Shown piece after piece: positions 25,706-52,472 of a DNA stretch of 64,000 nucleotides (within the stretch, counting starts at the first letter, position 1; each line of letters begins with the position of its first letter). Source of the DNA: Sulfoacidibacillus thermotolerans (GTDB lineage Bacteria; Bacillota; Bacilli; Alicyclobacillales; SLC66); the NCBI RefSeq assembly GCF_003144315.1, contig NZ_MPDK01000013.1, forward strand, positions 1 through 64,000, given 5' to 3'. The notes under the pieces were generated by a model, which saw nothing but the letters and a program-made list of their open reading frames with translations, was not told the origin of the DNA and made no database searches. Both the position numbers and the translations under genes were made by a program.

Positions 25706-28134
25706 CTTGTCACCTGTGCGAGCAACCAGTCTCAACCCCTATTTATGAAGCAGACTATACCTTCTGTTGTCACGGATGCAAAGAATTGTGGCACGTACTT
25801 GGTGAAGAGGAATTACAAAAACTGAAATCCCAACCTGGGATCAATTGGTTAGCAGCACGAACAAAAGGACTTGCACTCCTTACACCAGAATCTGATAAGC
25901 CAACGGATGCACAGACGATCACCCTGGCACTTGATGGGATCTGGTGTGCCTCATGCACCTTGCTGATTGAACATGTCGTTGCACAAACACCTGGCGTTTT
26001 TGCTGCCAAGGTGGATTTTTCGACGAGTACAGCAGAGATTGCATATGATCGCGAATCCGTTACGAAGGAAACTTTATGTGAATCGATTGCAAAGCTTGGG
26101 TATCAAGCGATCCCTAAAGAAGATGCATCATCCATGGAGCAACGAGCGGATGTAATCTTACTGCGTCGTTTTAGTGTAGCAGCACTGCTTAGCTTGCTCA
26201 TGATGATGCTAAGCGTCCCGATTTGGACAGGTTATTTACCACTATTGCCATCAGGCGTTCGCATCGCTCTCACTTATTCGCTGTGGTTCTTAACAACACC
26301 CGTGATCTTTTGGAGTGGATGGCCCTTTTTGCGCGGCGCGTGGTCTTCACTTCGTCATCTAGTTCCTACAATGGATTTATTAATCGCGATCGGAAGTTTA
26401 TCTGCTTATTTTTATAGTGTCATAAACGTTCTACAAAAGGGCCAATTTGTTTATTTTGACACGGCAAGCTTACTTGTAAGTTTTTTGCTTTTTAGCCGTA
26501 CACTTGAAGCGCAAACAAAACGTAAAGCAAGTCGCGTTGTTTCCCTACTCGGGCAACTCGCACCCAAAGAAGCACGCGTTTTACTGGGAGATCAACCTAC
26601 TTTAACAGAAATCGCAAACGTTCGGGTTGGAGACTTCGTTCGTGTCGAGATTGGAGAGACGTTTCCTGTCGATGGGACTGTCATTGCTGGACACTCTTCC
26701 GTTGATGAATCTATGCTTACAGGTGAATCAATGTGGGTCGATAAGCAAATCAAAGACACTGTCTATGCCGGCACAAAAAATTTAACAGGAACTCTGACTG
26801 TACAGGCCACACGAATCGTAGATACACTGCTCAACCAAACAACCCATTTTGTTCAAAGTACTGAGATGAACTCTTTGCACTATAAACGGCTCGCCGACCG
26901 CATTTTACAAATCTTTGTTCCACTTGTTATTCTTGTCGCTACTTTGACCATTGTAGGCTCATTATGGCTTGCTCATTTAAGTTTAGGCATAGCCTTACTG
27001 CGAGGAGTCGCTGTATTAGTCATCGGTTGCCCGTGCGCACTTAGCGTTGCGACACCACTCGCGGTACTTGGCGGAGTAAGGCGACTTCATGAATATGGCA
27101 TCTTGCTGCGCAAACACGAAGCATTCGAACACGCCGCGAATATTGATACGCTCATTTTAGACAAGACAGGCACAGTAACACTTGGCTCAGTAACTGTAAA
27201 AGAGACAGTTTTTGTGATGGAAGAATCCCTTGCACTAAAACTTGCGCTTTCTGCAGAGTTCCCGTCTGATCACCCTATAAGTAAGGCTATCGTTCAGTAT
27301 GCTGTTCAGATGGGATTAAGTCCTTTCCCCGCAAAAGACTTTGAATTGGTTCCAGGCTTTGGGGTAAGGGCAAAAGTGTTGCATTATACAGTGAGCGTTG
27401 GTGCGGACACAAGTGAAGTTCGCTCGCCATTAATCGAAGCTAAGGTGGAGAAGTGGAGAAATCTAGGGTATTCTATTGCCTACTTATACATTGACGGTCA
27501 GCCCATGGGTGCTTTCGCATTTGCAGATGCCGTGCGCAAAGAAGCGTATGATGCGATTTCCAGACTCAAACAAGCACAGGTTCGCGTGGTAATCGCAAGT
27601 GGTGATCATGCACAAGCCGTTGCTGCAGTCGCTCATGCTGTAGGCATCGAAGAATGGCACGCAAATTTGCGCCCTACAGAAAAAGCTGAACTTGTAGCAC
27701 AACTACAATCCTCTGGCCAGCATGTCGCTTTTCTTGGAGATGGAGTCAATGACGCTCCAGCACTCATAAAAGCTGATCTCGGGATGGCGATGGGGAATGG
27801 ATCCGATCTTGCCATTCAAGCAGGCCATTTTGTTTTGGCAAAACCTGATCTGCGCGGAATTCCGGACTTATTTGAGCTGGGGAAAAAAGTGATGGGGACA
27901 ATCCGTTTCAATCTTGGTTGGGCCATCATCTACAATGGAATTGCACTGATCATCGCTGCGTTTGGATTTGCTAGCCCAGCGATTGCCGCACTGGCGATGC
28001 TTTTATCTAGCGCCTTTGTTCTTGGTAACTCATTACGCGTATTTGGATTTTCTCCCCAAAGGTATGTGGCGGGGGGATTTGCCGTCGTCGGGACACTCGC
28101 TGTCCTTGGCGTCCTTTCATGGTTTGCCCTGTAA
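25693..28134 (+). CDS. CcoI/FixI-like copper-translocating P1B-type ATPase
   Basis: Exports Cu(I) for insertion into cytochrome oxidase or detoxification. The N-terminus has the CcoI-type metal-binding module (CHLCEQP and FCCHGCKELW), then an HMA domain with GIWCASCTLLIE. The eight-helix core includes the ion-binding VIGCPCALSVATP, the phosphorylation site LDKTGTVT, TGES in the actuator and GDGVNDAPAL at the hinge. The double N-terminal module and lack of a histidine-rich tail favour a CcoI/FixI role over a simple CopA. The ATG at 25693 is used; a TTG at 25672 has a slightly better ribosome binding site. ctaG follows 52 bases downstream. Confidence 0.92.
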   Translation: MVILTCHLCEQPVSTPIYEADYTFCCHGCKELWHVLGEEELQKLKSQPGINWLAARTKGLALLTPESDKPTDAQTITLALDGIWCASCTLLIEHVVAQTPGVFAAKVDFSTSTAEIAYDRESVTKETLCESIAKLGYQAIPKEDASSMEQRADVILLRRFSVAALLSLLMMMLSVPIWTGYLPLLPSGVRIALTYSLWFLTTPVIFWSGWPFLRGAWSSLRHLVPTMDLLIAIGSLSAYFYSVINVLQKGQFVYFDTASLLVSFLLFSRTLEAQTKRKASRVVSLLGQLAPKEARVLLGDQPTLTEIANVRVGDFVRVEIGETFPVDGTVIAGHSSVDESMLTGESMWVDKQIKDTVYAGTKNLTGTLTVQATRIVDTLLNQTTHFVQSTEMNSLHYKRLADRILQIFVPLVILVATLTIVGSLWLAHLSLGIALLRGVAVLVIGCPCALSVATPLAVLGGVRRLHEYGILLRKHEAFEHAANIDTLILDKTGTVTLGSVTVKETVFVMEESLALKLALSAEFPSDHPISKAIVQYAVQMGLSPFPAKDFELVPGFGVRAKVLHYTVSVGADTSEVRSPLIEAKVEKWRNLGYSIAYLYIDGQPMGAFAFADAVRKEAYDAISRLKQAQVRVVIASGDHAQAVAAVAHAVGIEEWHANLRPTEKAELVAQLQSSGQHVAFLGDGVNDAPALIKADLGMAMGNGSDLAIQAGHFVLAKPDLRGIPDLFELGKKVMGTIRFNLGWAIIYNGIALIIAAFGFASPAIAALAMLLSSAFVLGNSLRVFGFSPQRYVAGGFAVVGTLAVLGVLSWFAL

Positions 28135-28186
28135 CTGATACTGAGGAATTGCACTATCCTCACTGAGACTGGAGTGTAACGTAAAG

Positions 28187-28993
28187 ATGGCATACATGAT
28201 GAATTCCTTTCCTTTTCTCCCTGCTTGGCGCCCAGAAGTCTTTGCGTTTGCCGCTTTACTCGCCATATCTTATCAACTGATCAGTGGCCGTCTTGGCAGA
28301 GAATGGGCTGGTGAGCAGTATACGCTGCCCTCTCGTCGTGAGCACCTTGCCTTTATTGGACTGCTCACCGTTTTTGTATTTGCTGTCGGTTCTCCGCTAG
28401 ACTTGCTCGCACAAACCAGTTCTTTCCCTGCATATATCTTACAAATGTTACTCATGACGATGGTCATGCCTTGGTTGTTATTGCTTAGCCTTCCAAGATG
28501 GATCATTCAATTCGCCTTATCCCTTAGCAGGGTACAAAAAATCTTGTCTTCACTTACAAAACCATGGAAGGCGAGCCTACTTTATAATTTAACCGCTACA
28601 CTGTCTCTCTCGCCATTTTTCCTAGATTTAAACTTATCAAGCAATTGGATTCATCTGTTAACCTCTGCTTTTCTCATGATAGCTGCTCTGCTCTTTTGGT
28701 GGCCACTCGTCGGAACTAGGAAAATTGGCTTGCACCGCGATGGGTTCTATGAGTTTCGCTATATTGCCTACTCCATTATTTTCATGCTCCCCATTATCCT
28801 CGCGCTTCTTTTAACAAAAACAGCCTGGTATAAAGTTTATCTTACCAGGCATTTGACCGATCTCTCCCTTTTGCAAATGCAACAGGAGGGAGCAAAACTC
28901 ATGTTATTAGGTATGCTTTTTGTCTTTGGTACACTCGGTTTGCGTGTATTGCGGCACTTGGATCACTCTTTTTGGTACAACACTCCATCTTAA
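28187..28993 (+). CDS. ctaG: CtaG-family cytochrome oxidase assembly protein (copy 1)
   Basis: Seven-segment membrane protein of the caa3_CtaG family (268 residues), needed in B. subtilis for active caa3 oxidase and thought to handle copper. Family features are the early GSPLDLLAQTSSFPAYILQM, the MVMPWLLLLSLP turn, and the LLFWWPLVG motif. A second homologue is encoded at 31944-32744 in the oxidase operon. The stop codon overlaps the stop of the convergent SCO-fusion gene by two bases (28991-28992), which leaves no space for a terminator between the two transcripts. Confidence 0.85.
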   Translation: MAYMMNSFPFLPAWRPEVFAFAALLAISYQLISGRLGREWAGEQYTLPSRREHLAFIGLLTVFVFAVGSPLDLLAQTSSFPAYILQMLLMTMVMPWLLLLSLPRWIIQFALSLSRVQKILSSLTKPWKASLLYNLTATLSLSPFFLDLNLSSNWIHLLTSAFLMIAALLFWWPLVGTRKIGLHRDGFYEFRYIAYSIIFMLPIILALLLTKTAWYKVYLTRHLTDLSLLQMQQEGAKLMLLGMLFVFGTLGLRVLRHLDHSFWYNTPS

Positions 28994-30789
28994 GAAAGCA
29001 ACTGTTTGACATAGTGACTTATGAGGGCTGCATAGGACCCCATGAGCGTCGGTGCAGAGTCCCCTGTTCCTCCGACAAACCACACTTCTTTTAAGTTCTT
29101 AGATAGAAAATAAATTCCGTCCGTATGCTGTACCATGCCAACTTTCGGCAACCCAACGTAGAAATAATATGCATTCCAAACTCTTTGCAAAGAAGCTAAG
29201 GAATTCGAGGTGAGGAATAAGAAGTTTTTCATATGAGTCAAACCATGTTCCTCATCAAATGCCTGCACATCAGCCAGCGAATGAAACGTTGGATTTGCTG
29301 CTACAGCCACAAACTCAACATCTTTTTGCAAGCTCCCTAGTGTGCGGTCGGCTCCTTGCATTTCCGCAGCAATCACTGGACAGTCATCATAACAAACAGG
29401 GTCTAAAAACGTCAAAACGACCACTTTCCCTGCCAATTGTGAAAGAGATACTTTTTTCCCATATTGATCTACTAAGGTAAAATTCGGTGCAGGTCGATTC
29501 CCTACAGGTGTAACTCCCCCATTTATCATTGCTGCTTGATCTGCTGGCGCATTCGCCGCCTCGGTTTGTGCGGAGACATGAGATAGATGCACGACAACTA
29601 CTGCGCTAATCGCTAGGGAAAAAATCGTTGCCGCGGCAGTAGTAAAAAGTCGCAGATTCACTGTCTCATGAAACGTTTTTTTCCATTTGCTTACCCATAA
29701 GATCAAGCTTGGCAGCAGTTCCTCTGCTTTTTCCACCCTTGCAGCGCCAGCAACAACCAGTAGTGCCACGACCGGGCTCGAATTTGGATCGGTTCCAAGT
29801 CCACCTAAAACACCGAAATCCTGCCCGATGACCCAGGTAAGTAACACCCAGACAAGAGTGAGTGGCACAACAATGCGCAGTCTTGCTTGCCATAGCCATA
29901 AAAAACCAAGTGTTGCCATCCAGATGACAAATGTCGCATTAAAAAATACGGGATACGCATTTAATATGTGGGCGACCCCGTAGAGCAAAGAGGCAAGAAA
30001 GGACGGTTGCGGCATTTCTGCCATACTGAGGGTTGTACTGCTAAGCCCTTGGCCAGTCCAAAATCCTGAAGCAGGAAGCGCTTGTGCAAAAGCAGCCCAA
30101 AGCCATAAGACAACCATGGTAAAACGCAAATATGTTGCCACTCTCCCAGCTTTCCACGCCTGTTCGGAGAGCAGTAAAAACGCAGCTCCTACCATATAAA
30201 ACAGCACTGAACCGGGCGCCCCAGCCAACCATGTGGCCCCACCAGAAAAAACACCGCCAAATCCTTCTCCGACTATCCAAACTGCAAGACCCCATCCCAA
30301 CGATAGCCATAAACCAATTCTCGTTAGAAGACTATTCCCTCCAAAAATCAACAACATACCAATGCCTACTTGAATCCAGATCGCCAATAAATCGTATTGA
30401 ATTGGACTTTGGCTCCACAATACAACGAGCGGCTCTAATAAATGATTGAGAAATGGTGGTTGCGCAGATACCATCGGATTCACAATGTTTGGTATAAATT
30501 CACTGCTCATATCCGGTTGAGCTTGTAAGAGTCCATCAATGATCCATAACGCGCCAAGCCCAATCCGTAAGAGACGGCGCCTTTGAAAGACCTCTCTTGT
30601 AGCTTGATCGATCGATCCAGTAGGAGACCTCAACCCTTCTTGGATCCATTCGATCAATGAGACATGACGAACACTTTTCGTAAACCAGAAAAGCACTAAC
30701 AATATGAAAAGAAATAGCGGGAATTGCCATAACATACTCGTATAAAATAAATGCAAAATCAGCGGACTTGGATTATTTGTCATATCCAT
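28990..30789 (-). CDS. Fusion of a polytopic membrane domain with a SCO1/SenC copper chaperone domain
   Basis: 599 residues. Residues about 10-440 form a membrane domain of roughly ten segments, related to the product of the upstream gene (compare LTRIGLWLSLGWGLAVWIVG with VGKIGLWVSMGLAFLDWVVG). Residues about 455-599 are a thioredoxin-fold SCO domain: APNFTLVDQYGKKVSL, the copper motif CYDDCP (C466, C470) and the copper-ligand histidine in VQHTDGIYFL (H555). SCO proteins deliver copper to the CuA site of subunit II. ATG 30789 follows GGAG and lies inside the end of the upstream gene (17-base overlap). It is last in the oxidase operon. Fusion to a large membrane domain is unusual; SCO proteins normally have one anchor. 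Confidence 0.82.
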   Translation of the reverse strand: MDMTNNPSPLILHLFYTSMLWQFPLFLFILLVLFWFTKSVRHVSLIEWIQEGLRSPTGSIDQATREVFQRRRLLRIGLGALWIIDGLLQAQPDMSSEFIPNIVNPMVSAQPPFLNHLLEPLVVLWSQSPIQYDLLAIWIQVGIGMLLIFGGNSLLTRIGLWLSLGWGLAVWIVGEGFGGVFSGGATWLAGAPGSVLFYMVGAAFLLLSEQAWKAGRVATYLRFTMVVLWLWAAFAQALPASGFWTGQGLSSTTLSMAEMPQPSFLASLLYGVAHILNAYPVFFNATFVIWMATLGFLWLWQARLRIVVPLTLVWVLLTWVIGQDFGVLGGLGTDPNSSPVVALLVVAGAARVEKAEELLPSLILWVSKWKKTFHETVNLRLFTTAAATIFSLAISAVVVVHLSHVSAQTEAANAPADQAAMINGGVTPVGNRPAPNFTLVDQYGKKVSLSQLAGKVVVLTFLDPVCYDDCPVIAAEMQGADRTLGSLQKDVEFVAVAANPTFHSLADVQAFDEEHGLTHMKNFLFLTSNSLASLQRVWNAYYFYVGLPKVGMVQHTDGIYFLSKNLKEVWFVGGTGDSAPTLMGSYAALISHYVKQLLS

Positions 30790-31873
30790 CTGCGGTGACT
30801 CCTTTCTTGTATTTATTTGCATGCTGCTTCGTCCGGTGAAACGCCCATAGCACAATCACAAATCCAGGAACCATTCCGATATTCAGAAGATAATGCGGCG
30901 CAACTCCAAAAGATTCAATCATCCACCATACAAAAAGTAGGAATACAATAAGAAAATAGACGAGAACACGTCGCTCCAAAGCCCGAACACTCACATATGC
31001 ACCCAGTGCAAAGATGAGGAAAAGTGCAACAGAAATCCACTCGCTATGATACTCGAAAGTTCTTATCAACCAGATATGACTTAAAAAAATGAATTCAGGG
31101 GTAAGAGATGAGCTTACAACTTGCCCTGTTAGATGCATGGAAGAGGATCTGCCTCCCATGTGCACAAGTTGCGAAAGCGCAACCAACAGGAATAGACCAC
31201 CTAATACACGTGAACCGAAACGTAAGGCCCTTCCCTTTTCCCACCATTTTCTGGGCAATAACAACAAGATACTAAGAAACATAACGAGTAATGCAGCTCC
31301 AGGAAAGCCACTCACCGAATCATGTGAAATTGCAAATAGGCGACCAAAGCTCTCTCCTACTACCCAATCCAAAAATGCCAATCCCATTGATACCCACAAT
31401 CCAATCTTACCGACAAAATGCTCTCTCCCCAAGTAGAGTAAAAGCGCTAAAGAAAATTGCACAAGCACAGAGAGAATATTGGCCGCAGTCGGATCAAAAA
31501 ACCAATAATTACTAAACCATTGAATACATGTCGTTACGAATCCTGGATCATACGAGATCACTGAATTTACATAACGATCTTTTGCGACAACAACCATCAT
31601 GGGAAGAATTTGTATAACTCCGCTGTATAACCAGATTCCTGCAAGACCCACCCACAGTGTATGTCTACCAAAATTTTGTAAATCTTGAGCTGAAGCTGCC
31701 ACTCTTTGTTCAGGTTTGTTCTCACGGTTGTCTGCTTGTGCTGGCTCATCGCGCAAAATCTTCAAAACGGCACTCATTACATAGCCGAAAACAACTTTGA
31801 TCCCAACCAAAAAACCAAATGCAAACATCACCTCTCCGAGCGACAGATAGTAATTATCGATCAGTTGACTCAT
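30773..31873 (-). CDS. Polytopic membrane protein paralogous to the SCO-fusion membrane domain
   Basis: 366 residues with about eight to nine membrane segments. The pattern HTLWVGLAGIWLYSGVIQIL, then VGKIGLWVSMGLAFLDWVVG and SGFPGAALLVMFLSILLLLP, aligns with the N-terminal part of the downstream SCO fusion, so the two are paralogues. The GxxWIxxG start of each unit recalls DoxX/DoxD proteins, but that link is weak. No heme or copper ligand pattern is clear. GGGGAG stands six bases before the ATG. It overlaps the SCO-fusion gene, which implies that both products are made together, perhaps as one complex. Confidence 0.7.
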   Translation of the reverse strand: MSQLIDNYYLSLGEVMFAFGFLVGIKVVFGYVMSAVLKILRDEPAQADNRENKPEQRVAASAQDLQNFGRHTLWVGLAGIWLYSGVIQILPMMVVVAKDRYVNSVISYDPGFVTTCIQWFSNYWFFDPTAANILSVLVQFSLALLLYLGREHFVGKIGLWVSMGLAFLDWVVGESFGRLFAISHDSVSGFPGAALLVMFLSILLLLPRKWWEKGRALRFGSRVLGGLFLLVALSQLVHMGGRSSSMHLTGQVVSSSLTPEFIFLSHIWLIRTFEYHSEWISVALFLIFALGAYVSVRALERRVLVYFLIVFLLFVWWMIESFGVAPHYLLNIGMVPGFVIVLWAFHRTKQHANKYKKGVTADGYDK

Positions 31874-31943
31874 GGAAAGCTCCCCTTCGCCTATAAAGCA
31901 AACTGCTTGCCTCTGCTAAGCGCTCAATAAACTCAAAAAATAG

Positions 31944-32744
31944 TCATCGATAGAGTAGCGCGTTGTCATACCGTGAATATGCATAGACTCCGAGACTAAA
32001 AAATGGAACTAACATCCCAACTAGCATGATAATCAATCCCAGCTGTTGATCTGCTAAAATGGGGATAGAAAAGACTCTTGGTACTTGCAAATAAAAGCGA
32101 TAAAACGGTTCTTGTGTAAAGAGTAAAAGAATAATTAGAGGCATCAATAAATTCCCAGCAAAAAAAATATATACAACTTGTGCTGCTGGTCTTAACCTCG
32201 CAATGAGTGCAGTTGGGCTGAGAATAGGCATCCATAAAAAGATTGCGAGCAAGAAAAAAACAAAATGTTCCACCACGTGCAGCCACGGGTGCAACAATGT
32301 TTGATTAAACACAGGTGGAAGATGAAACGCCACAAAGACCACATTAAATGCTAATGCACGTACAAACGGTTTAGAGACCTTTTGATAAAAAGGCTTATTC
32401 ACAACACGCGCTGCAACAGGCTCGATTACCCATGCAGGAATACTCGATAAGAACAAAGGGGTCATCACAATCATTTCTAAAATATTTTGCAGCATATACG
32501 CACTAAAAAGTAGATGATTAGCTAAATAGTCAATCGGGCTTCCAAATGCCAGATAAAAAACCCCAATACCAGCAAGGAAACTCAGCCACTGTTGTTTCGT
32601 CACCGGTTGACTGTGTGCGAAGTAATGTCTTCCAGATCCCACTACAAGCCAAAAATAAACTGTCGCAAGAATGAGTGATTCAATCAATACAAGAGGATGC
32701 CATAATAAATTTATACCTAACATCCAAAATTGCTGTGCAGTCAT
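31944..32744 (-). CDS. ctaG: CtaG-family cytochrome oxidase assembly protein (copy 2)
   Basis: 266 residues with about seven membrane segments. GSPIDYLANHLLFSAYMLQN, then MIVMTPLFLSSIPAWVIEP and FLWMPILSPTAL match the caa3_CtaG family; it is clearly diverged from the copy at 28187-28993. The ATG follows GGAGGTG at seven bases and overlaps the preceding stop codon (ATGA), so translation is coupled to the upstream secreted protein. Being inside the oxidase operon, this copy is the better candidate for assembly of that oxidase. Confidence 0.85.
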   Translation of the reverse strand: MTAQQFWMLGINLLWHPLVLIESLILATVYFWLVVGSGRHYFAHSQPVTKQQWLSFLAGIGVFYLAFGSPIDYLANHLLFSAYMLQNILEMIVMTPLFLSSIPAWVIEPVAARVVNKPFYQKVSKPFVRALAFNVVFVAFHLPPVFNQTLLHPWLHVVEHFVFFLLAIFLWMPILSPTALIARLRPAAQVVYIFFAGNLLMPLIILLLFTQEPFYRFYLQVPRVFSIPILADQQLGLIIMLVGMLVPFFSLGVYAYSRYDNALLYR

Positions 32745-33364
32745 GCACTCGCACCTCCCCCACTCAGAGCCTGATGCGTTATCGTAAGAAGTTCGTTAGG
32801 AACTGCACCTGGCGCACACTGAACGAGTGTATTGTCATCAGGAAGAGTATCAATATGCAAAACCCCATCTTTTAACATAGAATAAGGAACACTTCCAGGT
32901 GGTATGTCAGGTCCACCAAACTGGTCTGGATTGATGTGTTTTATCGCCAATTCCTTTAGCAATGCGGTGGAATATGACACTGGGTAGTGAGGGAAAATAT
33001 TAGTGATTGACTCGATATTCCCATATGTCCCCATAATCCCTTGCACTAGATGTGGATGTACCTTATACAAAGCAGATAAAACAGACACACTGTCGATTGA
33101 TGTCTCCGCCAACGTCCGCGAAACGGGAATGTGAAACCATTTATGAGGAACGTTTTGTAAAGGCAAATCAAGTACAGGTTCTCCCTGATATACAAATTCG
33201 ATCTGAGTTTGTCCTGAATCTAAATGATCAATCCCGCGCCATGAAACCAAATCACGTTCGTGAATCCCTTGCCCTAAACTTGTTGTCAAGGGTACAAATA
33301 AGCATAAAACAAATAACACACTTGCTACACCAATTTGCGCTGGAAGACTACTTAAGCGCTTCAT
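32741..33364 (-). CDS. Exported protein of unknown function in the oxidase operon
   Basis: 207 residues with a cleavable-type signal peptide (basic MKRLSSLP, then a hydrophobic core GVASVLFVLCLFVPLTTSLG). The mature part has no family that I know. It contains one cysteine (VQCAPGAVP) and histidines spread along the chain (PHKWFHIP, HPHLVQG, FPHYP), so metal or heme contact is possible but not shown. It overlaps the neighbouring genes on both sides (17 bases and 4 bases), so it is firmly part of the operon and may be an accessory subunit or an electron-transfer partner outside the membrane. Confidence 0.7.
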   Translation of the reverse strand: MKRLSSLPAQIGVASVLFVLCLFVPLTTSLGQGIHERDLVSWRGIDHLDSGQTQIEFVYQGEPVLDLPLQNVPHKWFHIPVSRTLAETSIDSVSVLSALYKVHPHLVQGIMGTYGNIESITNIFPHYPVSYSTALLKELAIKHINPDQFGGPDIPPGSVPYSMLKDGVLHIDTLPDDNTLVQCAPGAVPNELLTITHQALSGGGASA

Positions 33365-33818
33365 CTGGAACGCCCTCCGATGTGCTTACTTGTATACTTA
33401 AAATAAACTCATCATCATGTAACCCCACCTGCGAAATAAAAAGAAGGATGAGTCCAGTAAATAAAAAGGCGCCAGGTAACTCCCACACCGTCAGAGCCCC
33501 TGCAATCCCCCCTACAATCGAAAGAGCGAGCAACCCCATCGCTGCACGTGGCCATTTCCACGAAATAATCGCCGCTAGCAACGCGACCGCAGAGAAGAAG
33601 AACGTCAACCAATCCATCCATGTATTGGTCTTGATTTGTGGAAAATAGAAATACATCCCGAGTCGGATTCCCTTTTCCGCAATGGCAACCAAAAAACCTA
33701 GCATTGCCCCCGTGAGCGAAATCACCATAGCCCCCACACGCACCGCGAACCTCTCCTTTTTCGTGAAATGGGAGCAGGCGGTCACAGCTCGCATCAAATG
33801 CCTGACTGTGACCGCCAC
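33348..33818 (-). CDS. Small membrane protein in the oxidase operon, unknown
   Basis: 156 residues, four hydrophobic segments (VRVGAMVISLTGAMLGFLVA, WLTFFFSAVALLAAIISW, MGLLALSIVGGIAGALTVWE, and GAFLFTGLILLFISQ). No family recognised. The GTG at 33818 has GGGAGAG about 11 bases upstream; an ATG nine codons on is possible. It lies 25 bases after the small 66-residue gene and overlaps the next gene. A role as an accessory subunit of the oxidase is an inference from position only. Confidence 0.65.
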   Translation of the reverse strand: MAVTVRHLMRAVTACSHFTKKERFAVRVGAMVISLTGAMLGFLVAIAEKGIRLGMYFYFPQIKTNTWMDWLTFFFSAVALLAAIISWKWPRAAMGLLALSIVGGIAGALTVWELPGAFLFTGLILLFISQVGLHDDEFILSIQVSTSEGVPDEALK

Positions 33819-33843
33819 ATAGGAACAGGCTCTCCCATTCCAA

Positions 33844-34044
33844 TTACACTTTTTTTACCTCTACGCTTTGGCTATTTGTTTCTTCTTCACGTAGTCGGTC
33901 AATTCTCGTTGCCCAGCGGATCAACAACAGAATCAGTGTTGTCATGATCACAGCTTGAAAGAGCCAAAATACGATGTCCCACCACAGTGGGATCCCCTCA
34001 CTATAAGGGATCTGAATCGGTAATGTCGGCCAAAAATTCCCCAT
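33844..34044 (-). CDS. 66-residue single-span membrane protein, likely oxidase accessory subunit
   Basis: One membrane segment (WWDIVFWLFQAVIMTTLILLL) between a short exposed N-terminus and a charged C-terminus. AGGAGGAGGTG five bases before the ATG is one of the strongest ribosome binding sites in the operon, which supports this short gene as real. It lies 24 bases behind the subunit III gene. Size, topology and place are those of small extra subunits of heme-copper oxidases, but no family match is recognised. Confidence 0.7.
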   Translation of the reverse strand: MGNFWPTLPIQIPYSEGIPLWWDIVFWLFQAVIMTTLILLLIRWATRIDRLREEETNSQSVEVKKV

Positions 34045-34068
34045 TTGGGCACCTCCTCCTCTTACAGA

Positions 34069-34647
34069 TTACAAGAGATAGAGTTCAACATAGAGCGCAA
34101 CCCAAGTAATCACAGTAAAGACCCAGTACCAGGAGGAAAGCTCATACCCCAGTTGTCTCTCAGGAGTTACACCTATGCGCTTGACTCGTTCTCTTCCTGC
34201 TGCGAGGACTAATAAACCGACAAGTCCCATGACAACCGACAATCCAACTGTCGCAAGAAAAGTCTCCCCATAATGAGACATTGGATTTAACGGATGGTAC
34301 CACAGTTCATATCCCTGCATCAGCGTTCCAACGCCACCTAAGAATAGCGTCACATCAGTCATGCGTTTGTAACCTCTGCCATCCCCTTGTTGCACGCGGC
34401 GCACTGCGGCGACCGCAGTCAACAAACTAATCACAAGGAGTACAGTTTGAATCGCTCCCGTTGTTTGATCAAGTGCTGGTGGAATAAAGCCTCCACTCAT
34501 GATGTACCGCACGTTGATCATCATAAAATAAGGGACACTCATGCTAAACAAGAAAATAGCAAAGGCAGATCGCATTTTGCGCTGTTCAATGCGACTCTCA
34601 ACGTCACTCCTTGTCTGCGCTGATCCCATTGCAGTTCTTGCCGCCAT
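34069..34647 (-). CDS. ctaE: Heme-copper oxidase subunit III
   Basis: 192 residues with five membrane segments, the short form of subunit III without the first two helices of the mitochondrial type. Recognisable parts are FAIFLFSMSVPYFMMINVRY, FLGGVGTLMQGYELWYH with the conserved glutamate, HYGETFLATVGLSVVMGLVG and the final YWVFTVITWVALYVELYL. The ATG at 34647 has GGAGGTG five bases upstream; a GTG at 34674 would overlap the subunit I gene. Subunit III stabilises the active site of the oxidase and, in pumping enzymes, its proton uptake. Confidence 0.88.
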   Translation of the reverse strand: MAARTAMGSAQTRSDVESRIEQRKMRSAFAIFLFSMSVPYFMMINVRYIMSGGFIPPALDQTTGAIQTVLLVISLLTAVAAVRRVQQGDGRGYKRMTDVTLFLGGVGTLMQGYELWYHPLNPMSHYGETFLATVGLSVVMGLVGLLVLAAGRERVKRIGVTPERQLGYELSSWYWVFTVITWVALYVELYLL

Positions 34648-34670
34648 AAAATCACCTCCACCTCGTTGTG

Positions 34671-36542
34671 TCACATGGAAACAGGACCAGGGGTCGTTGG
34701 GATGCTAAACGATTCATCATCGTCTTCATAGTCATAAAAAGATCCTGTGACCACCGGCGCCGCAGCAAAAGATTCTTCAGCAGGCGGTGAAGTAGTTTGC
34801 CATTCCAACGTCTTAGACTGCCATGGGTTTTCCTGAACTTTTTTACCTGATTTCATTGCCCAGGCAATATGAATCAAGTTAAACAGGAAGCCAAGGCCTA
34901 GAATAAATGCAAAGATTGAAATGACAATATTAATTCCTTGCAAATAGGGCGGGTACACTGGTACCCAGCGATTCATGCCGCGTAACCCTTGGATAAACAT
35001 GAGGCTAAATGCTCCGTCAAATCCAATAAATACCCAGATCGCACCGAGTACACCCATCTTGCTGTTGTACATGCGCCCTGAAAACTTAGGCAACCAATAG
35101 TACATAGCAGCAAGCCAGGTAAAGACCATCCCGCCGATAATTGTAAAATGGAAGTGGGCGACGACAAAGAACGTGTCATGCAACTGCAAATTGATCACGG
35201 GGTCAGCAAGAAAAACGCCTGTCATCCCACCAATTAAAAAGTTGAACATACTCATTAAAACAAAGAGTGAAGGGACAGTCATGCGAAAGCGCGAACGCCA
35301 AAGAGTCCCAATTACAACCATGTACGCAAATCCGGTAGGAATCGAAATCATCTCTGTAAAGAAAGAGAACGGCAACATCTCAGTCAAGCGCATATTCGTG
35401 AACATGTGGTGAGCCCAAACAAATCCACTAAGCATCATGACGAAAATGAGACCGATAATTCCCCACTCTCGTGCAAACAAGGGCTTGCGAGCCATAACCG
35501 GCATAATTTCCATCCAAATCGCGAACGCAGGGACGACGATGATATACACTTCTGGATGTCCAAATAACCAGAACAATTCCAGATAAGTAATCGGACTCCC
35601 TACCGCGGTGAAAAACGGCAATGGAACCACACGGTCTAACACGGCCAAAATAAAGGTGATCTCGATTTCTGGAAGCCAGATGATATTCAGCAGGCTAACT
35701 GCGAGAATCCCCCATGCATACATAGGCAAACGGTTCCAAGTTAATCCTTTTGCCCGCTTAAACAGGATCGTCGTCGTTAAATTGAGTGAAACCATCAAAG
35801 ACGATAACGTGAGCGCAAGTACGCCAAGATAATAAAACAAAATTCCATTTGGATCGTTTTGCGCGAGGGGTTCATACCCACGCCAACCAGTGGTCCATTC
35901 CCCTAATAGCGGGCTTAGAATCACTGTCATGATCCCTGCAGGAACAAGCCATACACTAAGCGCCGACATTCTCGGAAAAGCGGAAGAATTCGATCCGATC
36001 ATCATCGGAATCAAATAATTGCCCAGGCCACCAACGAGCGCCACGGTTCCGACAGAAAACATCATGATCGTTCCGTGAATTCCAACTGTCTCAATGTACT
36101 GACCGGCATACGGGAAAAACCACATATGGTCTCCCATCAACTGAATCCGCATCAACATTGCGGCCAAACCAGCGATGAAAAATCCGCCAGTAGAAGAAAC
36201 GAGATACTGAATGCCAATCACTTTGTGATTTGTACTATACGCAAAATACCTGCGCCAACCAGTTGCTTCAGGATACGTAACTGTGATCCCAAACGATGGC
36301 AGCAATACGTTTTCCAATCCGCCTATTCCAAGCAGCCATCCTGCTGTTGCCGCAATCCATCCAAAAACTACTGAAGGTTGTGTGATAAAAGGATCCCCAT
36401 ACTGCGGGTCTAACAGATAGGCAACCAGGCAATTGACCACCAGAAAACCTATACCAGCCCACAGCAAGCCTCGGATAACGGGCGGCATTATCTGCTTTTT
36501 GCGAAGTGGTAGGGGCGCATCGCCAATCCTTGCCACACTCAT
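34671..36542 (-). CDS. ctaD: Heme-copper oxidase subunit I with altered proton channels
   Basis: Catalytic subunit that reduces O2 to water. Numbering from the ATG at 36542 (GGAGG nine bases upstream; ATG 36548 is possible): low-spin heme ligands H156 (GIHGTIMMF) and H465, heme a3 ligand H463 (VVAHFHFTI), CuB ligands H329 of GHPEVY and H378/H379 of VWAHHMFT, and the cross-linked tyrosine Y333 are all present, with E331. Two proton-path residues that are near-invariant in A-type oxidases are missing: the D-channel aspartate (IGAPDMAFPR) is S186 in IGSNSSAFPR, and the K-channel lysine (PTGIK) is A406 in PTGFA. Two extra N-terminal helices and an acidic, Pro-rich C-terminal tail are also seen. 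Operon with subunits II and III. Confidence 0.95.
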   Translation of the reverse strand: MSVARIGDAPLPLRKKQIMPPVIRGLLWAGIGFLVVNCLVAYLLDPQYGDPFITQPSVVFGWIAATAGWLLGIGGLENVLLPSFGITVTYPEATGWRRYFAYSTNHKVIGIQYLVSSTGGFFIAGLAAMLMRIQLMGDHMWFFPYAGQYIETVGIHGTIMMFSVGTVALVGGLGNYLIPMMIGSNSSAFPRMSALSVWLVPAGIMTVILSPLLGEWTTGWRGYEPLAQNDPNGILFYYLGVLALTLSSLMVSLNLTTTILFKRAKGLTWNRLPMYAWGILAVSLLNIIWLPEIEITFILAVLDRVVPLPFFTAVGSPITYLELFWLFGHPEVYIIVVPAFAIWMEIMPVMARKPLFAREWGIIGLIFVMMLSGFVWAHHMFTNMRLTEMLPFSFFTEMISIPTGFAYMVVIGTLWRSRFRMTVPSLFVLMSMFNFLIGGMTGVFLADPVINLQLHDTFFVVAHFHFTIIGGMVFTWLAAMYYWLPKFSGRMYNSKMGVLGAIWVFIGFDGAFSLMFIQGLRGMNRWVPVYPPYLQGINIVISIFAFILGLGFLFNLIHIAWAMKSGKKVQENPWQSKTLEWQTTSPPAEESFAAAPVVTGSFYDYEDDDESFSIPTTPGPVSM

Positions 36543-36557
36543 GCGCATCTTCCTCCC

Positions 36558-37361
36558 TTAGTTGCCAGCCTTGAGCTGCTGTTTAACCCACTGTTTAAAT
36601 GCTGCGTCACTGACGATATGCACGGTCGCATACATGTATGGATGCCCTGGCCCACAAACTTCGGCGCACTGTACACGCACCTCTGGATTTGTCTCCGTTG
36701 AAGCGATCTTCGTCGGCGTCGCGACCATATATCGCGTTTCCCCAGGGATGACATCCATTTTCTCGCCAAACGCCGGAATCCAAAACGAGTGAATCACGTC
36801 AAGTCCCACAGCATAAGGGTGGTTTGGATCATAAGAACGCAAAACGAATTCGACTGGGCGATTCACGGGCAAATACAACACGTTATTTCCATTTGCGTTT
36901 AAAGCATTTTGAATTCCATATTGCGGATAAGAGAAAAACCACTGCCACTGACGTGCCACTACGTCGACAACCAGATCGTGTTGTTCGGCTTGTGGGCTCA
37001 TCTCTTTAAACATTTGCTCTGCTGCGGATGTCGTTGGATGGACGAAAAAGAGCAGATTTACAGCTAACGACAATGTAACCCAGATTGTTACATACGTCGC
37101 ATTGAAACGTGCTCCTTTGCCCCGCACTACGCTGTCACGGGAACGTCGCCGTGCGCGAAGTGGAATAAAGATAAGCATCAGCACGACAAACACAAAAATT
37201 GGAGTTAAAAAGCGAAATAAAAATACACTTGCACTCAACCCATCTAACGCTTGTGTGGATGCCGTATAGTAATAGAAATTATGCCCCCAAGCGCTGACTC
37301 CGAGTTCTCCGAGCACAGAAAACACTACCCACAACACACCAAAAATCAGCAGATCGGCCAC
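36558..37361 (-). CDS. ctaC: Heme-copper oxidase subunit II with CuA site
   Basis: Receives electrons at the outer face through the binuclear CuA centre. About three hydrophobic segments at the N-terminus (the last two near residues 50-70 and 90-108) precede the cupredoxin domain. CuA ligands are intact: histidine in DVIHSFWIPAFG, both cysteines in CAEVCGPGHPYM and its histidine and methionine. The aromatic electron entry patch ARQWQWFFSYP is present. No cytochrome c domain is fused, unlike caa3 oxidases, so the donor should be a separate protein, such as the cupredoxin encoded upstream. GTG start with GGGGGTC seven bases upstream. Confidence 0.95.
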   Translation of the reverse strand: MADLLIFGVLWVVFSVLGELGVSAWGHNFYYYTASTQALDGLSASVFLFRFLTPIFVFVVLMLIFIPLRARRRSRDSVVRGKGARFNATYVTIWVTLSLAVNLLFFVHPTTSAAEQMFKEMSPQAEQHDLVVDVVARQWQWFFSYPQYGIQNALNANGNNVLYLPVNRPVEFVLRSYDPNHPYAVGLDVIHSFWIPAFGEKMDVIPGETRYMVATPTKIASTETNPEVRVQCAEVCGPGHPYMYATVHIVSDAAFKQWVKQQLKAGN

Positions 37362-37422
37362 TGCTGGAGACCCCCTTTAGCTCTGCGCTCCTTGCGAATG
37401 ATCTCACATTCACGCCTAAGCG

Positions 37423-38073
37423 CTACGCCGGCAAAATATTGATTGTCCCTTTCATTCCGTCCGCATAATGAATAAAGCCTTGTACAAAGCAACCATATTC
37501 CCATATGCCCGGTTTGTTTGGAACTGTGAATGTAAGTGAAATACTTCCACCCGGACGAAGTGTTGGACTGAAATTCCCATTTCCCGGCGCCGTAATCAGC
37601 CATGGACCCGGCTTAGGAATCGAGGTGACAATTGCTTTATTGGTTACCAAATTGTCCACCGCATGTTCTTCTTTAATCGTCACAGGAACTCCATCCCAAA
37701 AATCTTCGTTAAACTGAATCCGCAAATCCGTATAGTAATTGGGATCCCGTTGAAATCCACCGCGCCCAATTTGCATTTCATGGAAATGAGTCGGACTTAA
37801 ATTGTGAATATGCAACGTCATGGGAGTTCCCACACGCCAAGTCATTTGGTTTGGAATATAGTAGTAGTCTTGTTGATAAACCTTGGTGAGCCCAGAATCC
37901 ACCTGCAGTCCATTAAGCGCCGAAAACGCTTTTGCAATATTTGAAGACTCAAATAAAGCAATCGCACTCGCTGCCAGCACACTGCTCGTGCCAATCAGAA
38001 AACTGCGACGACTCCAATCGACCTCTACTGCGTCTGAGCCCACAGTTTCTTTGCTGCGATCCTCTCCATCCAT
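37423..38073 (-). CDS. Tat-exported mononuclear cupredoxin (sulfocyanin/rusticyanin-like role)
   Basis: 216 residues. A twin-arginine signal (WSRRSFLIG at 20-28, then a hydrophobic stretch to about 41) suggests export in folded form. The cupredoxin domain has a plausible type 1 copper site: H96 or H98 in SPTHFHEM, C195 in YGCFVQGF, H202 and M207 in IHYADGMKG. The Cys-x6-His-x4-Met spacing is that of blue copper electron carriers. Lying directly before the oxidase subunit II gene, it is the best candidate for electron donor to CuA. ATG 38073 has GGAGGGAG eight bases upstream; the longer frame to 38208 has no start signal. Confidence 0.87.
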   Translation of the reverse strand: MDGEDRSKETVGSDAVEVDWSRRSFLIGTSSVLAASAIALFESSNIAKAFSALNGLQVDSGLTKVYQQDYYYIPNQMTWRVGTPMTLHIHNLSPTHFHEMQIGRGGFQRDPNYYTDLRIQFNEDFWDGVPVTIKEEHAVDNLVTNKAIVTSIPKPGPWLITAPGNGNFSPTLRPGGSISLTFTVPNKPGIWEYGCFVQGFIHYADGMKGTINILPA

Positions 38074-38113
38074 AGTGCAAACTCCCTCCCGCGTCGTTTC
38101 ATTGTATCCTTGA

Positions 38114-38644
38114 CTAGGAGTTCGACACCACGACTTGCGGTGTGCCTCCATTCGTGACGTCAAACCAATCCCACATTCCAAAATTCTCTGGACGTGTTTG
38201 ATCGTCAATTCGCAAAAGCAAATTCTCCATGCGATAATCCCCTACTTGTGAAGCAACAAATTTGAAGTTACTCGATTGCCCTGGAAAAACGCCTGCGCCC
38301 GAATCATTGACCATCGATGAGACGGATGCGCCTGCGCCCGGAAATGCAAGCTTGTTAACGGAATTATAAATGCCAAAATCAAACGGAATGCCCCCATCAT
38401 TGACGAAGTGCACCTGTACGGTATAGCCGACCGGAATATCCACCGTCATCTGTCCATTGGCATAGCCATTAAAGTTGGCAAAACCATTTGTCGAGTTGGT
38501 TCCCGCAGCGATCGTCAAATCGACCGTCTGATTCGCGTTATTGACGGAAAACCAAGGTGGATTCACTGCTTCCGTCGTTCCACAGCCCGTTAAAATAATA
38601 CTTGAAAGCGCAACCGCGCCCAGCACAATGTGTCGAAATCTCAC
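38114..38644 (-). CDS. Sulfocyanin-like lipoprotein lacking type 1 copper ligands
   Basis: Lipoprotein of 176 residues with lipobox IILTGCGT (C21). The mature domain has the sulfocyanin pattern FANFNGYANGQMTVDIPVGYTV, followed by a beta strand where archaeal sulfocyanins read LPH with the first copper histidine; here it is GIPFDFGI, with Phe. The C-terminal loop that should carry Cys and His (in sulfocyanin near GHAEAGMW) reads YRMENLLLRIDDQ and then ENFGMWDWFDV, with only the Met kept. So a cupredoxin fold without a normal copper site is predicted. First gene of the oxidase operon; its ribosome binding site is poorly placed. Confidence 0.75.
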   Translation of the reverse strand: MRFRHIVLGAVALSSIILTGCGTTEAVNPPWFSVNNANQTVDLTIAAGTNSTNGFANFNGYANGQMTVDIPVGYTVQVHFVNDGGIPFDFGIYNSVNKLAFPGAGASVSSMVNDSGAGVFPGQSSNFKFVASQVGDYRMENLLLRIDDQTRPENFGMWDWFDVTNGGTPQVVVSNS

Positions 38645-38760
38645 CGCTCTGCAACCCCCCTTGCAAAATGATGCAGGTTATCTAAAATTCAAATTCTCGC
38701 TGTGCATCACCCTCCTTTAGGATTATTCGTTTTCTACTTCACCACTTGCATGTAGTTAAG

Positions 38761-38789
38761 ATGATAGTCTGATAGAATAGTCATGTCAA
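38761..38789 (-). promoter_or_regulatory. Promoter of the oxidase operon
   Basis: Read on the minus strand: consensus TTGACA (38784-38789), a 17-base spacer and TATCAT (38761-38766). It lies about 117 bases before the first gene and is the only clear promoter ahead of the eleven tightly spaced minus-strand genes down to 28990. Confidence 0.75.
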
Positions 38790-38903
38790 GAATTCGCCAT
38801 AATTCAGTCTCTTTTTCGTCATCACAAGTGCATAAATCACATCACTTATTCAAACTTTATGCTGTTAATTCTATTTTTCATTCCTCTTTTGTGCTTAATT
38901 AGT

Positions 38904-38938
38904 CAAAAATGAGTCAAGCGCAGCTCGACTCATTTTTG
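38904..38938 (-). terminator. Terminator behind sor
   Basis: Stem CAAAAATGAGTC/GACTCATTTTTG (12 bp) with an 11-base loop, 46 bases after the sor stop codon. The T-run is part of the 3' arm on either strand. Confidence 0.75.
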
Positions 38939-38983
38939 TGTCTTTGTCCTCTGCGGTGCGAGCCGCAGCCCGATGTATAGGGG

Positions 38984-39943
38984 CTAATTTTCGCTGACAC
39001 TCTCGCTGGCTTTGACAGTTCCATCGTCATTTAGGTATTCACGCCATGAGGTGTCCTCCATCAACGGATTCCAAAGAGTGATATAAGGTCCTTGCACCAG
39101 TGTAGCGAGCGCTTTATCATGAATTGCTTTCACTTTATGATTCACTACGACGCGTGAGATCCCAAACATTGCAGATTTCATGTCTGCCCATTCCATGTGA
39201 ACGATATAGGCAGTTGGTTTTTTCTCTGCTTGCATCAGTTGGAAGTTTCCGGCACGCGAACTTGGTGGATTGTCCCCAAGCGTTTGCAACGCCTGATGAA
39301 TACCGTCTGGTTCTAATTGAAAACTCCCTACGGCTGACGCGCCAATCTGGCGCATGATCATATATCCCAGAAAACCAGGTGCTTTCTTAAATTGCTTCAT
39401 AACCTGCCCGACAGCTTGTTCAAACTCTTCTTCTTTGCCGGGAATCACCGCGTGCTCACCAGCTGCGATGACGCGTTGTCCATATGGGAGAGAGACGGGA
39501 GGCATCTCTTCGCCGGCCATAAAACTCGCGCCAAGAACCGCTGGAACGTCGGTCATCCCCACATTTTCTGGCATGTCATGAGCGACAATTTCGTACACAT
39601 CTTCCCATGGACCTTCCACGACCATGCCGAGGCATCGCGAACACAACCGGAAAATGCTATCAAACTGTTCCATATGCATCTCTTCGTGATCTTCCCACCG
39701 CTTCCACATCGTATACTGTGCGATACCGATCGGATTGAGTTCATGATGCATGTCCATTTTGGCACCGCCAAAGCGCCCACCCATCGGAAAGACCCCAACT
39801 TGCACATGATTCTGAAATCCGAGAAAACCATTGTGATTTGCGGTGACCATACAAACTTTTGGCCCGACACTTTCAAAAGCTGCAAAACTTTCTGGTGCAT
39901 TAACCACTTTTGCCTTGCTAATTGCAATGTATGGATTTGGCAT
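38984..39943 (-). CDS. sor: Sulfur oxygenase reductase
   Basis: Cytosolic enzyme that oxidises and disproportionates elemental sulfur with O2 to sulfite, thiosulfate and sulfide without external cofactors; it forms a 24-mer in known cases. From the ATG at 39943 (GGGAGGGG seven bases upstream) the protein has 319 residues, close to the 308-318 of archaeal enzymes, and its residue numbers coincide with theirs: persulfide cysteine C31 (VGPKVCMVT), iron ligands H86 and H90 (DHEEMH) and E114 (PWEDVYE), and C101/C104 (LCSRC). AKMDMHHELN and GKEEEFEQAV regions also match. It has its own promoter and terminator, so it is monocistronic beside the oxidase operon. Confidence 0.96.
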   Translation of the reverse strand: MPNPYIAISKAKVVNAPESFAAFESVGPKVCMVTANHNGFLGFQNHVQVGVFPMGGRFGGAKMDMHHELNPIGIAQYTMWKRWEDHEEMHMEQFDSIFRLCSRCLGMVVEGPWEDVYEIVAHDMPENVGMTDVPAVLGASFMAGEEMPPVSLPYGQRVIAAGEHAVIPGKEEEFEQAVGQVMKQFKKAPGFLGYMIMRQIGASAVGSFQLEPDGIHQALQTLGDNPPSSRAGNFQLMQAEKKPTAYIVHMEWADMKSAMFGISRVVVNHKVKAIHDKALATLVQGPYITLWNPLMEDTSWREYLNDDGTVKASESVSEN

Positions 39944-40013
39944 GAACAAACCCCTCCCAGGTAGTGTGGCAGATGCGAACCCCGCAAACAAAGCGAGATA
40001 AGAAAGCCCTTTC

Positions 40014-40042
40014 ATCATATACCCCGATAGGTATTGTGTCAA
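40014..40042 (-). promoter_or_regulatory. Promoter of sor
   Basis: Minus strand: TTGACA (40037-40042), 17-base spacer, TATGAT (40014-40019), about 70 bases before the sor start codon. It has the same layout as the oxidase-operon promoter. Confidence 0.78.
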
Positions 40043-40240
40043 TATTGTGTAAATCACGCGATTTATTCGATAAATATTACTTTTTCTCGTCTAATCTATG
40101 AATTTTAATCGATAATCTCCTGATTTCATTTGTCCTGAATATTTTTCGACTCGAAAGGAACGTTTTTGCCTTTGTTCCCCCAAGTGTATTTAAATCTCAT
40201 CGTGTATAATGAAAAAATCACCAAAAAGGAGGACCACAGT

Positions 40241-44929: not shown

Positions 44930-45307
44930 CTATTTGAGGGGAGCATTTTTGTCTTCGGTTATCTCTTTTTCGATCCCACTGTCTTCTTTTTCAATCTTTT
45001 GCAACATCGAGATGGCGTCTGTTAAATTATTATTAAAGATACGTCGCGCGACATCCAATAATTCAAAAATCAATGGATCTTTTACCGAGTAAGTAACTTT
45101 TGTCCCATCTTTTTTCCCGATTACGATATTTTTATTGCGTAAAAGTGCCAATTGCTGAGAGACAACAGAACTATCAACACCTAATTCAGCTTGCAATTCA
45201 TTTACAAATTTATCTCCCTCACGAAGCAACTCTAAAATCCGGATTCGAATGGGATGTGACAATGTCTTGAAAAATTCTGCTTTAAACTGCTGTAATTTAA
45301 GATCCAC
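44930..45307 (-). CDS. ArsR-family regulator at the end of the hydrogenase operon
   Basis: Winged-helix repressor of about 125 residues: FKAEFFKTLSHPIRIRILEL, then LQAELGVDSSVVSQQLALLR as recognition helix and KKDGTKVTYSVKDP as wing. The classical metal site ELCVCDL is absent, and no cysteine is seen, so a redox or other ligand, or none, is expected. The C-terminal tail is charged. The gene overlaps the 3' end of hyfI (start GTG 45307, or ATG 45322), so it is co-translated with the hydrogenase and may autoregulate that operon. This role is inferred from position. Confidence 0.83.
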   Translation of the reverse strand: MDLKLQQFKAEFFKTLSHPIRIRILELLREGDKFVNELQAELGVDSSVVSQQLALLRNKNIVIGKKDGTKVTYSVKDPLIFELLDVARRIFNNNLTDAISMLQKIEKEDSGIEKEITEDKNAPLK

Positions 45308-45869: not shown

Positions 45870-45882
45870 TCATATCCACCTC

Positions 45883-48881: not shown

Positions 48882-48887
48882 CTCATT

Positions 48888-49526: not shown

Positions 49527-49575
49527 CGAAGTCCCTCCTTTGCTAAACTCCACACTGATCACGGGGCATCGGAAC

Positions 49576-50505: not shown

Positions 50506-50516
50506 CATTTCACCCC

Positions 50517-52376: not shown

Positions 52377-52401
52377 ATCAGCCATCTCCAAATCGTTATA
52401 T

Positions 52402-52430: not shown

Positions 52431-52472
52431 AACATAGTGGTTGCGCAGCGTCAATCCAGATAAAAAGTAGAT

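Follow-up and report, generated by a model that had tools for sequence, protein, structure and literature searches.

The DNA analyzed here (the window: 64,000 nucleotides, positions 1 to 64,000 of contig NZ_MPDK01000013.1 of Sulfoacidibacillus thermotolerans, genome G000) carries a cytochrome oxidase operon on its minus strand, running from 38644 to 28990 and comprising eleven closely spaced open reading frames (ORFs). The second gene encodes a homolog of AcoP, a green cupredoxin of Acidithiobacillus ferrooxidans, and we consider it probable that the operon specifies an AcoP-linked oxidase, with Fe(II) or some other high-potential donor as its likeliest substrate. The first six genes form its core:

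38114–38644, minus strand: gene 1, a sulfocyanin (SoxE)-like lipoprotein without copper ligands (Pfam SoxE, 4.4e-10, residues 33–92)
37423–38073, minus strand: gene 2, an AcoP-type cupredoxin with a twin-arginine-like N-terminus (phmmer and profile matches to AcoP)
36558–37361, minus strand: gene 3, COX2 with a CuA motif and no heme c motif (Pfam COX2, 2.1e-8)
34671–36548, minus strand: gene 4, COX1 (Pfam COX1, 1e-106, residues 111–549)
34069–34647, minus strand: gene 5, COX3 (Pfam COX3, 1.3e-10; ATG start at 34647 taken from the upstream sequence)
33844–34044, minus strand: gene 6, a 66-residue single-span protein (35 rows aligned including the window; no family)

Gene 2 matched no Pfam or NCBIfam family above cut-off. 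Against PDB sequences, phmmer aligned it to A. ferrooxidans AcoP (7z3b) with an E value of 1.7e-21, and a 25-row gene-2 profile recovered AcoP at 2.6e-29 over two stretches, the next-best molecule lying at 9.4e-7. The columns of copper ligands His98 and Cys195-x6-His202-x4-Met207 are invariant in all 25 aligned rows; in a wider scan the pattern was present in 37 of 39 sequences, the misses being the distant L103 and L104. The C-x6-H-x4-M spacing of AcoP was described in 2014 as 'to our knowledge, never reported' (PMC4059628). Judged by its sequence, gene 2 is thus an AcoP homolog inside a cytochrome oxidase cluster. Plasmid records gave no match for AcoP. The A. ferrooxidans protein is redox active and is reduced by cytochrome c4 (PMC5982212).

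A gene-2 search of 61 relatives (E ≤ 0.001) found AcoP in 20, G000 included, with a weak partial match in G039. Within the window's family, 10 of 18 genomes carry it, and none of the 15 genomes of genus g10 does. In a sample of the phylum, 8 of 398 genomes matched, three of them strongly (G000 and two of family f93) and the remaining five with E values between 5e-17 and 2e-4. The initial annotation had named conservation in neutrophilic heterotrophs as an outcome that would speak against a role in inorganic-donor respiration; none was seen in this sample, for whose genomes lifestyles are not known. Carriers comprise Ferroacidibacillus organovorans SLC66, Alicyclobacillus tolerans BL-1, A. mengziensis S30H14 and three metagenome-assembled genomes. 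F. organovorans is an Fe(II) oxidizer (PMC4888994), and the species A. tolerans is described as one (PMC8790237, PMC11123200).

The search for the same gene order in relatives, suggested in the initial annotation, was positive: genes 1–6 are complete and in sequence in 30 of 38 loci with an AcoP-linked COX1, all 30 within the window's taxonomic order and F. organovorans SLC66 among them. Among the other eight, the core of L049 is cut by a contig end, and seven (L074, L076 and L099–L103) lack gene 1; the four AcoP loci of family f93, which might conceivably be Sulfobacillus, are without gene 1. These counts exclude L058–L065, which duplicate loci of G002, G005, G006, G052, G053 and G056, and the 100-base stub L077; L036 and L037, which served as comparators in the COX1 alignment and tree, were left out of the gene-order scan, partial L049 and L076 were left out of the COX1 residue counts, and the second sulfocyanin of L054 is shown apart as L134. 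G000 itself holds a second AcoP–sulfocyanin–oxidase operon on contig C114 (L035), preceded by genes for CtaG and copper ATPase. In a tree of 38 COX1 sequences, C114-type copies formed one clade of 13 rows (support 100/100) with members from families f1 and f2. Window-type copies fell into three supported groups that include both families, their branching order being unsettled among themselves and relative to the C114 clade; a division into two clades, one per type, was therefore rejected. Since both types span f1 and f2, the split between the two AcoP-linked oxidases of the window genome is older than the split of these families.

Turning to other possible electron donors, G000 (completeness 99.86%) gave no match to PF13442 (run on this genome alone), PF00034 (cytochrome c), rusticyanin TIGR03095 or the multicopper oxidase family Cu-oxidase_3. 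Its two SoxE matches are the ligand-less copies of the two operons, visual inspection of its single Cupredoxin_1 match showed the usual copper loop to be without Cys, and its only Rieske match is a 109-residue ORF. Four COX1 proteins are encoded, and the two that are not AcoP-linked exceed the QoxB cut-off. Because the other donor families searched gave nothing and both other oxidases are quinol oxidases, AcoP is the best donor candidate in G000, which supports the earlier proposal of an oxidase fed by a copper protein and not by cytochrome c. The F. organovorans genome (G006) likewise gave no PF00034 match, along with two rusticyanin-like matches.

The CuA pattern is present in the window COX2, and the heme c motif CxxCH occurs in none of 40 COX2 rows scanned, confirming that subunit II lacks a heme domain. 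Both CuA patterns were found in 31 of these rows; five pass the Cys-loop pattern and fail the first-His pattern, in two (L074 and L076) Gln replaces the Glu of the Cys loop, while the two Cys, the His and the Met are present by eye, and the quinol oxidases L036 and L037 match neither pattern. Gene 3 scored 2.1e-32 against NCBIfam CoxB, yet below its cut-off. A caa3 oxidase was rejected on the missing heme c motif, and an aa3-600 menaquinol oxidase on the CuA pattern and the QoxB score of gene 4 (322.1 bits against a cut-off of 1015.5). The annotated departure from both the caa3 and the aa3-quinol operon types accordingly stands, two quinol oxidases being encoded elsewhere in the genome.

Of the two cupredoxin-fold proteins initially annotated, gene 2 was borne out as an AcoP homolog, and gene 1 proved to be a member of the sulfocyanin family that has lost its copper site. 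Its SoxE match is over the Pfam cut-off but spans only profile positions 7–65 of 149, and it scored 36.9 bits against NCBIfam sulfocyanin (cut-off 168.4). It has the lipobox LTGC, and a loose pattern found a lipobox-like motif in 29 of 31 operon copies. For the ligand test these 31 copies were aligned with six relatives chosen for having the sulfocyanin ligands (His and Cys-x4-His-x4-Met). The Cys column holds Asn in 20 operon copies, Asp in eight, Ser in three and Cys in none (0/31); the first His is present in 1/31, the second in 7/31, in a column made uncertain by a longer loop in the operon copies, and Met in 29/31. Six of the 31 rows have a Cys after the site picked by the loose lipobox pattern, and by eye this Cys is the lipobox or lies N-terminal to it. 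The copper Cys is also missing from three single proteins (L112, L129 and L134) and three fusion proteins (L109, L127 and L128). Gene 1 was rejected as an electron donor, and the loss of type-1 copper ligands suggests that it is probably a lipid-anchored docking or structural subunit. In the literature, no paper was found that brings together Sulfobacillus, sulfocyanin and copper ligand. Separately, the three fusion proteins, from G001 and G002, are ORFs of 575–594 residues in which a membrane domain resembling genes 10 and 11 (by eye) is joined to the sulfocyanin-like domain.

COX1 lacks the channel residues of canonical A-type oxidases at two positions and has a conserved Glu at a third:

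35985–35987, minus strand: Ser188 of COX1, in the place of the D-channel Asp (Asp in none of the 34 core sequences)
35352–35354, minus strand: COX1 Glu399 in helix VIII (34/34 core sequences and 2/2 distant ones, G013c and G115; Met in both quinol oxidases)
35325–35327, minus strand: Ala408 of COX1, in the place of the K-channel Lys (of 34 core sequences, 27 have Ala, six Ser and one Thr)

The Asp and Lys columns are those that we take, from motifs and numbering, to be the channel entry positions. The Asp position holds Ser in 17 core sequences, Thr in five, Lys in five, Gly in three and His, Arg, Asn and Glu in one each, so that the canonical D- and K-channel residues of A-type oxidases were each found in 0/34, whereas both quinol oxidases of G000 and five aligned PDB oxidases have Asp and Lys at these positions. 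The distant G115 has Asp at D and Leu at K; G013c has Glu at D and Met at K. Glu333 and Tyr335 of the GHPEVY motif and Asn177 are retained in 34/34 core sequences, Glu399 sits nine residues before the K-channel Lys position, and seven charged positions are conserved in the core and missing from the two quinol oxidases, a small comparison set. COX1 thus does without the canonical D and K entry residues. Protons may instead take a route that involves Glu399, and pumping may be slight or absent. Variants of K and D are discussed for archaeal COX1 (PMC8239418). Gene 4 is also extended at its N-terminus by about 100 residues, in which two hydrophobic stretches can be seen by eye. In this extension it resembles bacterial COX1 proteins with two extra N-terminal spans, iron oxidizers included, which are described as a basal group (PMC8239418). 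Plasmid records searched with COX1 gave 925 matches, none at 60% identity or above.

In A. ferrooxidans the reported order is cyc2, cyc1, cup (acoP), coxB, coxA, coxC and then rus, and this unit is Fe(II)-induced (PMC2754497). The window operon shares the acoP–coxB–coxA–coxC order and, by position, a small further subunit after COX3 (gene 6), and the relatives of the window organism include acidophilic Fe(II) oxidizers. Unlike the rus operon, it lacks cyc2, cyc1 and rus, matches to PF13442, PF00034 and TIGR03095 being absent genome-wide; it adds the ligand-less sulfocyanin homolog, CtaG, SCO and unassigned membrane proteins; and the relatives of its host are Gram-positive, with no outer membrane. 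AcoP homologs within oxidase clusters of acidophilic Gram-positive bacteria were noted in 2014 for the cox clusters of Sulfobacillus (PMC4059628), a likeness drawn here from the published description only, and Cup is reported to cluster with Alicyclobacillus (PMC10654088); the AcoP-linked oxidase operon is therefore an already known kind. New here are the lack of c cytochromes and rusticyanin, the copper-less sulfocyanin subunit and the altered proton entry. The SoxM/sulfocyanin complexes of Sulfolobales and Ferroplasma also combine a sulfocyanin-family protein and a CuA oxidase with no cytochrome c (for Ferroplasma, as described in PMC10654088). They differ from the window operon, in which the sulfocyanin homolog lacks copper ligands, AcoP would take the copper role, and subunits I and III are unfused.

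Taken together, we propose that the operon provides both the subunits and the assembly factors of a CuA-containing, aa3-like cytochrome oxidase. The electron donor of this enzyme would be the operon's own gene-2 AcoP cupredoxin, and the respiration it serves would draw on a high-potential donor outside the membrane, Fe(II) being the likeliest. Electrons would pass from Fe(II), directly or via a further acceptor, to the AcoP copper, then to CuA of COX2, heme a, heme a3–CuB and O2, with copper loaded by CtaG, SCO and perhaps the neighboring copper ATPase. The initial annotation had suggested an Fe(II)- or inorganic-donor respiratory module, and this is favored by AcoP homology, the rus gene order, occurrence of the core in a named Fe(II) oxidizer, its rarity in the phylum sample and published work on related organisms; Fe(II) would be a likelier donor than sulfur compounds or quinol. 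Among those published data, S. thermosulfidooxidans showed increased transcripts of SoxE Sulth_0453 and oxidase genes 0449–0451 when no strong competing iron oxidizer was present (log2 3.63, 2.67, 2.46 and 1.70), as reported in PMC6315122.

Several observations weigh against a dedicated Fe(II) oxidase. The Fe(II) role is drawn from sequence comparison and from published work on relatives. Cytochrome c4, which reduces AcoP in A. ferrooxidans, is missing from this genome, which leaves a gap in the proposed chain ahead of AcoP. In the same S. thermosulfidooxidans data, oxidase genes Sulth_0488–0489 rose more and cluster 1930–1933 moved in the opposite direction (PMC6315122), and Sulth_0449–0453 is at most a possible AcoP cluster. 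In the window's family, eight of 18 genomes, some of them incomplete, gave no AcoP match. PF00034 matches occur in 9 of the 20 AcoP genomes and rusticyanin-like matches, none over cut-off, in 12 of 20, so that AcoP is not the sole candidate carrier in every such genome; G002 encodes a four-ligand SoxE protein at a distance of about 21 kb from the operon, and family searches can miss divergent cytochromes. G000 also encodes a cytochrome b6-like protein next to a larger ORF (L138:6237–7960). Finally, a gene for sulfur oxygenase reductase (SOR) lies beside the operon both in the window and in the congener G001, and this neighborhood fits sulfur oxidation.

Within the proposed AcoP-linked oxidase, a more specific arrangement is conceivable and is offered only tentatively: a minimal cytochrome-c-free iron chain of Gram-positive acidophiles, in which surface AcoP would feed an oxidase docked via the structural sulfocyanin, with a helix-VIII glutamate path replacing both canonical proton routes and with possibly weak or no pumping, as would suit the small redox span of Fe(II).

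The cytochrome b6-like protein (PF13631, 58.2 bits for two stretches together) raises the alternative of a quinol-fed supercomplex like Sulfolobus SoxM, in which menaquinol would reduce a cytochrome b complex, then a copper protein and CuA, during heterotrophic growth. A sulfocyanin homolog placed first in the operon, as we take to be the case in SoxM-type clusters, would also suit this arrangement. We regard it as unlikely: gene 1 has no copper ligands, the sole Rieske match is too small for the usual membrane-anchored respiratory Rieske protein, G000 has no cytochrome c match in PF13442 or PF00034, two quinol oxidases already handle quinol, and the AcoP relative of A. ferrooxidans is reported as Fe(II)-induced (PMC2754497).

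The second alternative concerns SOR, and it bears on how the operon is delimited. The relevant features upstream of the operon and beyond its end are:

38761–38789, minus strand: promoter-like site TTGACA-17-TATCAT (11/12 consensus match)
38904–38938, minus strand: terminator-like hairpin between SOR and the operon (−21.9 kcal/mol, z −5.9)
38984–40057, minus strand: SOR, the upstream neighbor (Pfam SOR, 1.1e-146; NCBIfam SulOxRed over cut-off)
28187–28993, plus strand: a second CtaG, the convergent neighbor (Pfam, 3.2e-27)
25672–28134, plus strand: copper-type P-ATPase, a neighbor (NCBIfam ATPase-IB1_Cu over cut-off)

The eleven genes are packed as annotated, with gaps of 40, 61, 9, 23, 24, 25, −17, −4, 70 and −17 nucleotides from gene 1 to gene 11 (starts chosen from homologs and upstream sequence), and purine-rich stretches resembling Shine–Dalgarno sequences precede most starts. 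The site at 38789–38761 is the sole promoter-like match that good within 28000–39500, a region in which such sites are not enriched (18 observed versus 18.7 in shuffles); three were found in 38500–39100 versus 0.8 expected, two of the three on the opposite strand. None of 200 shuffles matched the stability of the hairpin, whose 3′ arm has a run of five U; the terminator scan made no call at this hairpin. As the hairpin separates the two, the SOR gene is probably a transcription unit separate from the operon. Among the loci scanned, within their reach, SOR adjoins the operon only in the window and in L038 of G001; a single operon of SOR and oxidase genes was rejected on both counts.

A sulfur-linked oxidase would take electrons from oxidation of sulfite, thiosulfate or tetrathionate downstream of SOR, with gene 10 and the N-terminal domain of gene 11 as DoxX/DoxD-like partners. 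Besides the upstream SOR in two genomes, it draws on the gene-11 membrane model, which resembles GGCX (Z 11.8, root-mean-square deviation 8.1, 233 aligned residues) and NACHO (Z 9.6, deviation 2.9, 124 aligned) in VIA-align, hints only, as Z below about 13 may mean little for helical bundles. We take GGCX and NACHO to be proteins of DoxX-like architecture. This alternative too appears rather improbable. The hairpin parts SOR from the operon, SOR is found in no further locus within the reach of those scanned, and SOR requires no external electron acceptor; DoxX is not among the nine Pfam families matched at E ≤ 1 by any of 20 aligned members of the gene 10/11 membrane family (alignment A2); and the core-bearing F. 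organovorans is tabulated as positive for ferrous iron and negative for sulfur (PMC11123200). A third alternative, in which AcoP serves at low pH chiefly to shield the oxidase or to supply copper and not to carry electrons, is very improbable: such roles were proposed for AcoP/Cup (PMC2754497, PMC4059628) and copper-handling genes abound in the operon and its neighbors, but CtaG, SCO and the copper ATPase could already fill the copper role, CuA would be left without a donor in G000 among the families searched, and AcoP accepts electrons from cytochrome c4 (PMC5982212).

If the AcoP-linked oxidase is read correctly, it bears on the path of electrons from Fe(II) to O2 in Gram-positive acidophiles, which is poorly defined. 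Sulfocyanin has been suggested as a carrier in Sulfobacillus (PMC6315122, PMC6803676). Since the oxidase-linked sulfocyanin lacks copper ligands, SoxE matches in the window's taxonomic order would mislead as markers of iron oxidation, and AcoP is the better candidate. Because D- and K-channel residues are lost together across a whole oxidase clade, proton pumping at low pH with a high-potential donor can be put to a direct test.

The remaining genes of the operon, downstream of the core, are:

33348–33818, minus strand: gene 7, a small membrane protein, true start possibly later (no Pfam or NCBIfam family)
32741–33364, minus strand: gene 8, an exported or anchored protein (14 rows aligned including the window, from loci around AcoP operons)
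31944–32744, minus strand: gene 9, CtaG (Pfam caa3_CtaG, 1.5e-37)
30773–31873, minus strand: gene 10, a multi-span membrane protein of the same family as the gene-11 N-terminal domain (alignment A2; no Pfam match)
28990–30789, minus strand: gene 11, a membrane domain joined to SCO/SenC (C-terminal SCO/AhpC-TSA match, Pfam SCO1-SenC 2.8e-10; A2)

Gene 6, the annotated 66-residue single-span protein, is present as the conserved sixth gene of the core and is assigned as a small core subunit at the position of CoxD/subunit IV. Gene 8 matched no Pfam or NCBIfam family; its homologs in f2 genomes lie mostly immediately upstream of the core, and its predicted structure has a mean predicted local distance difference test (pLDDT) score of 60.7. 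The large membrane protein and the SCO fusion that had been annotated are both encoded, with two amendments: gene 10 and the N-terminal domain of gene 11 belong to one family, and the fusion is absent from two congeners, whose gene-11 ORF of 367 residues ends without the SCO part. A separate SCO-like ORF lies near the operon in G049, G050 and G053. The start of gene 11 is more likely at 30789 (599 residues). Its membrane family is found beside many AcoP operons, including one f93 locus; the 20 aligned A2 members gave no convincing Pfam match, the best being 0.0088 to DUF6989 in one member, and the gene-11 membrane domain model (pLDDT 70.7) gave no Foldseek match at E ≤ 0.001. The copper P-ATPase beyond the operon perhaps serves its copper supply. 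At their stop ends, gene 11 and the convergent plus-strand ctaG share four bases (28990–28993).

Elsewhere in the window, 45297–52505 (minus strand) encodes a Complex-I-like membrane module, adjoined by an ArsR-type regulator gene (44930–45322). Its NuoC/D-like subunit (45883–47409) has Cys pairs near both ends (EQTCGVC and LCYACCDR), which we take to be a trait of group-4 [NiFe] hydrogenases.

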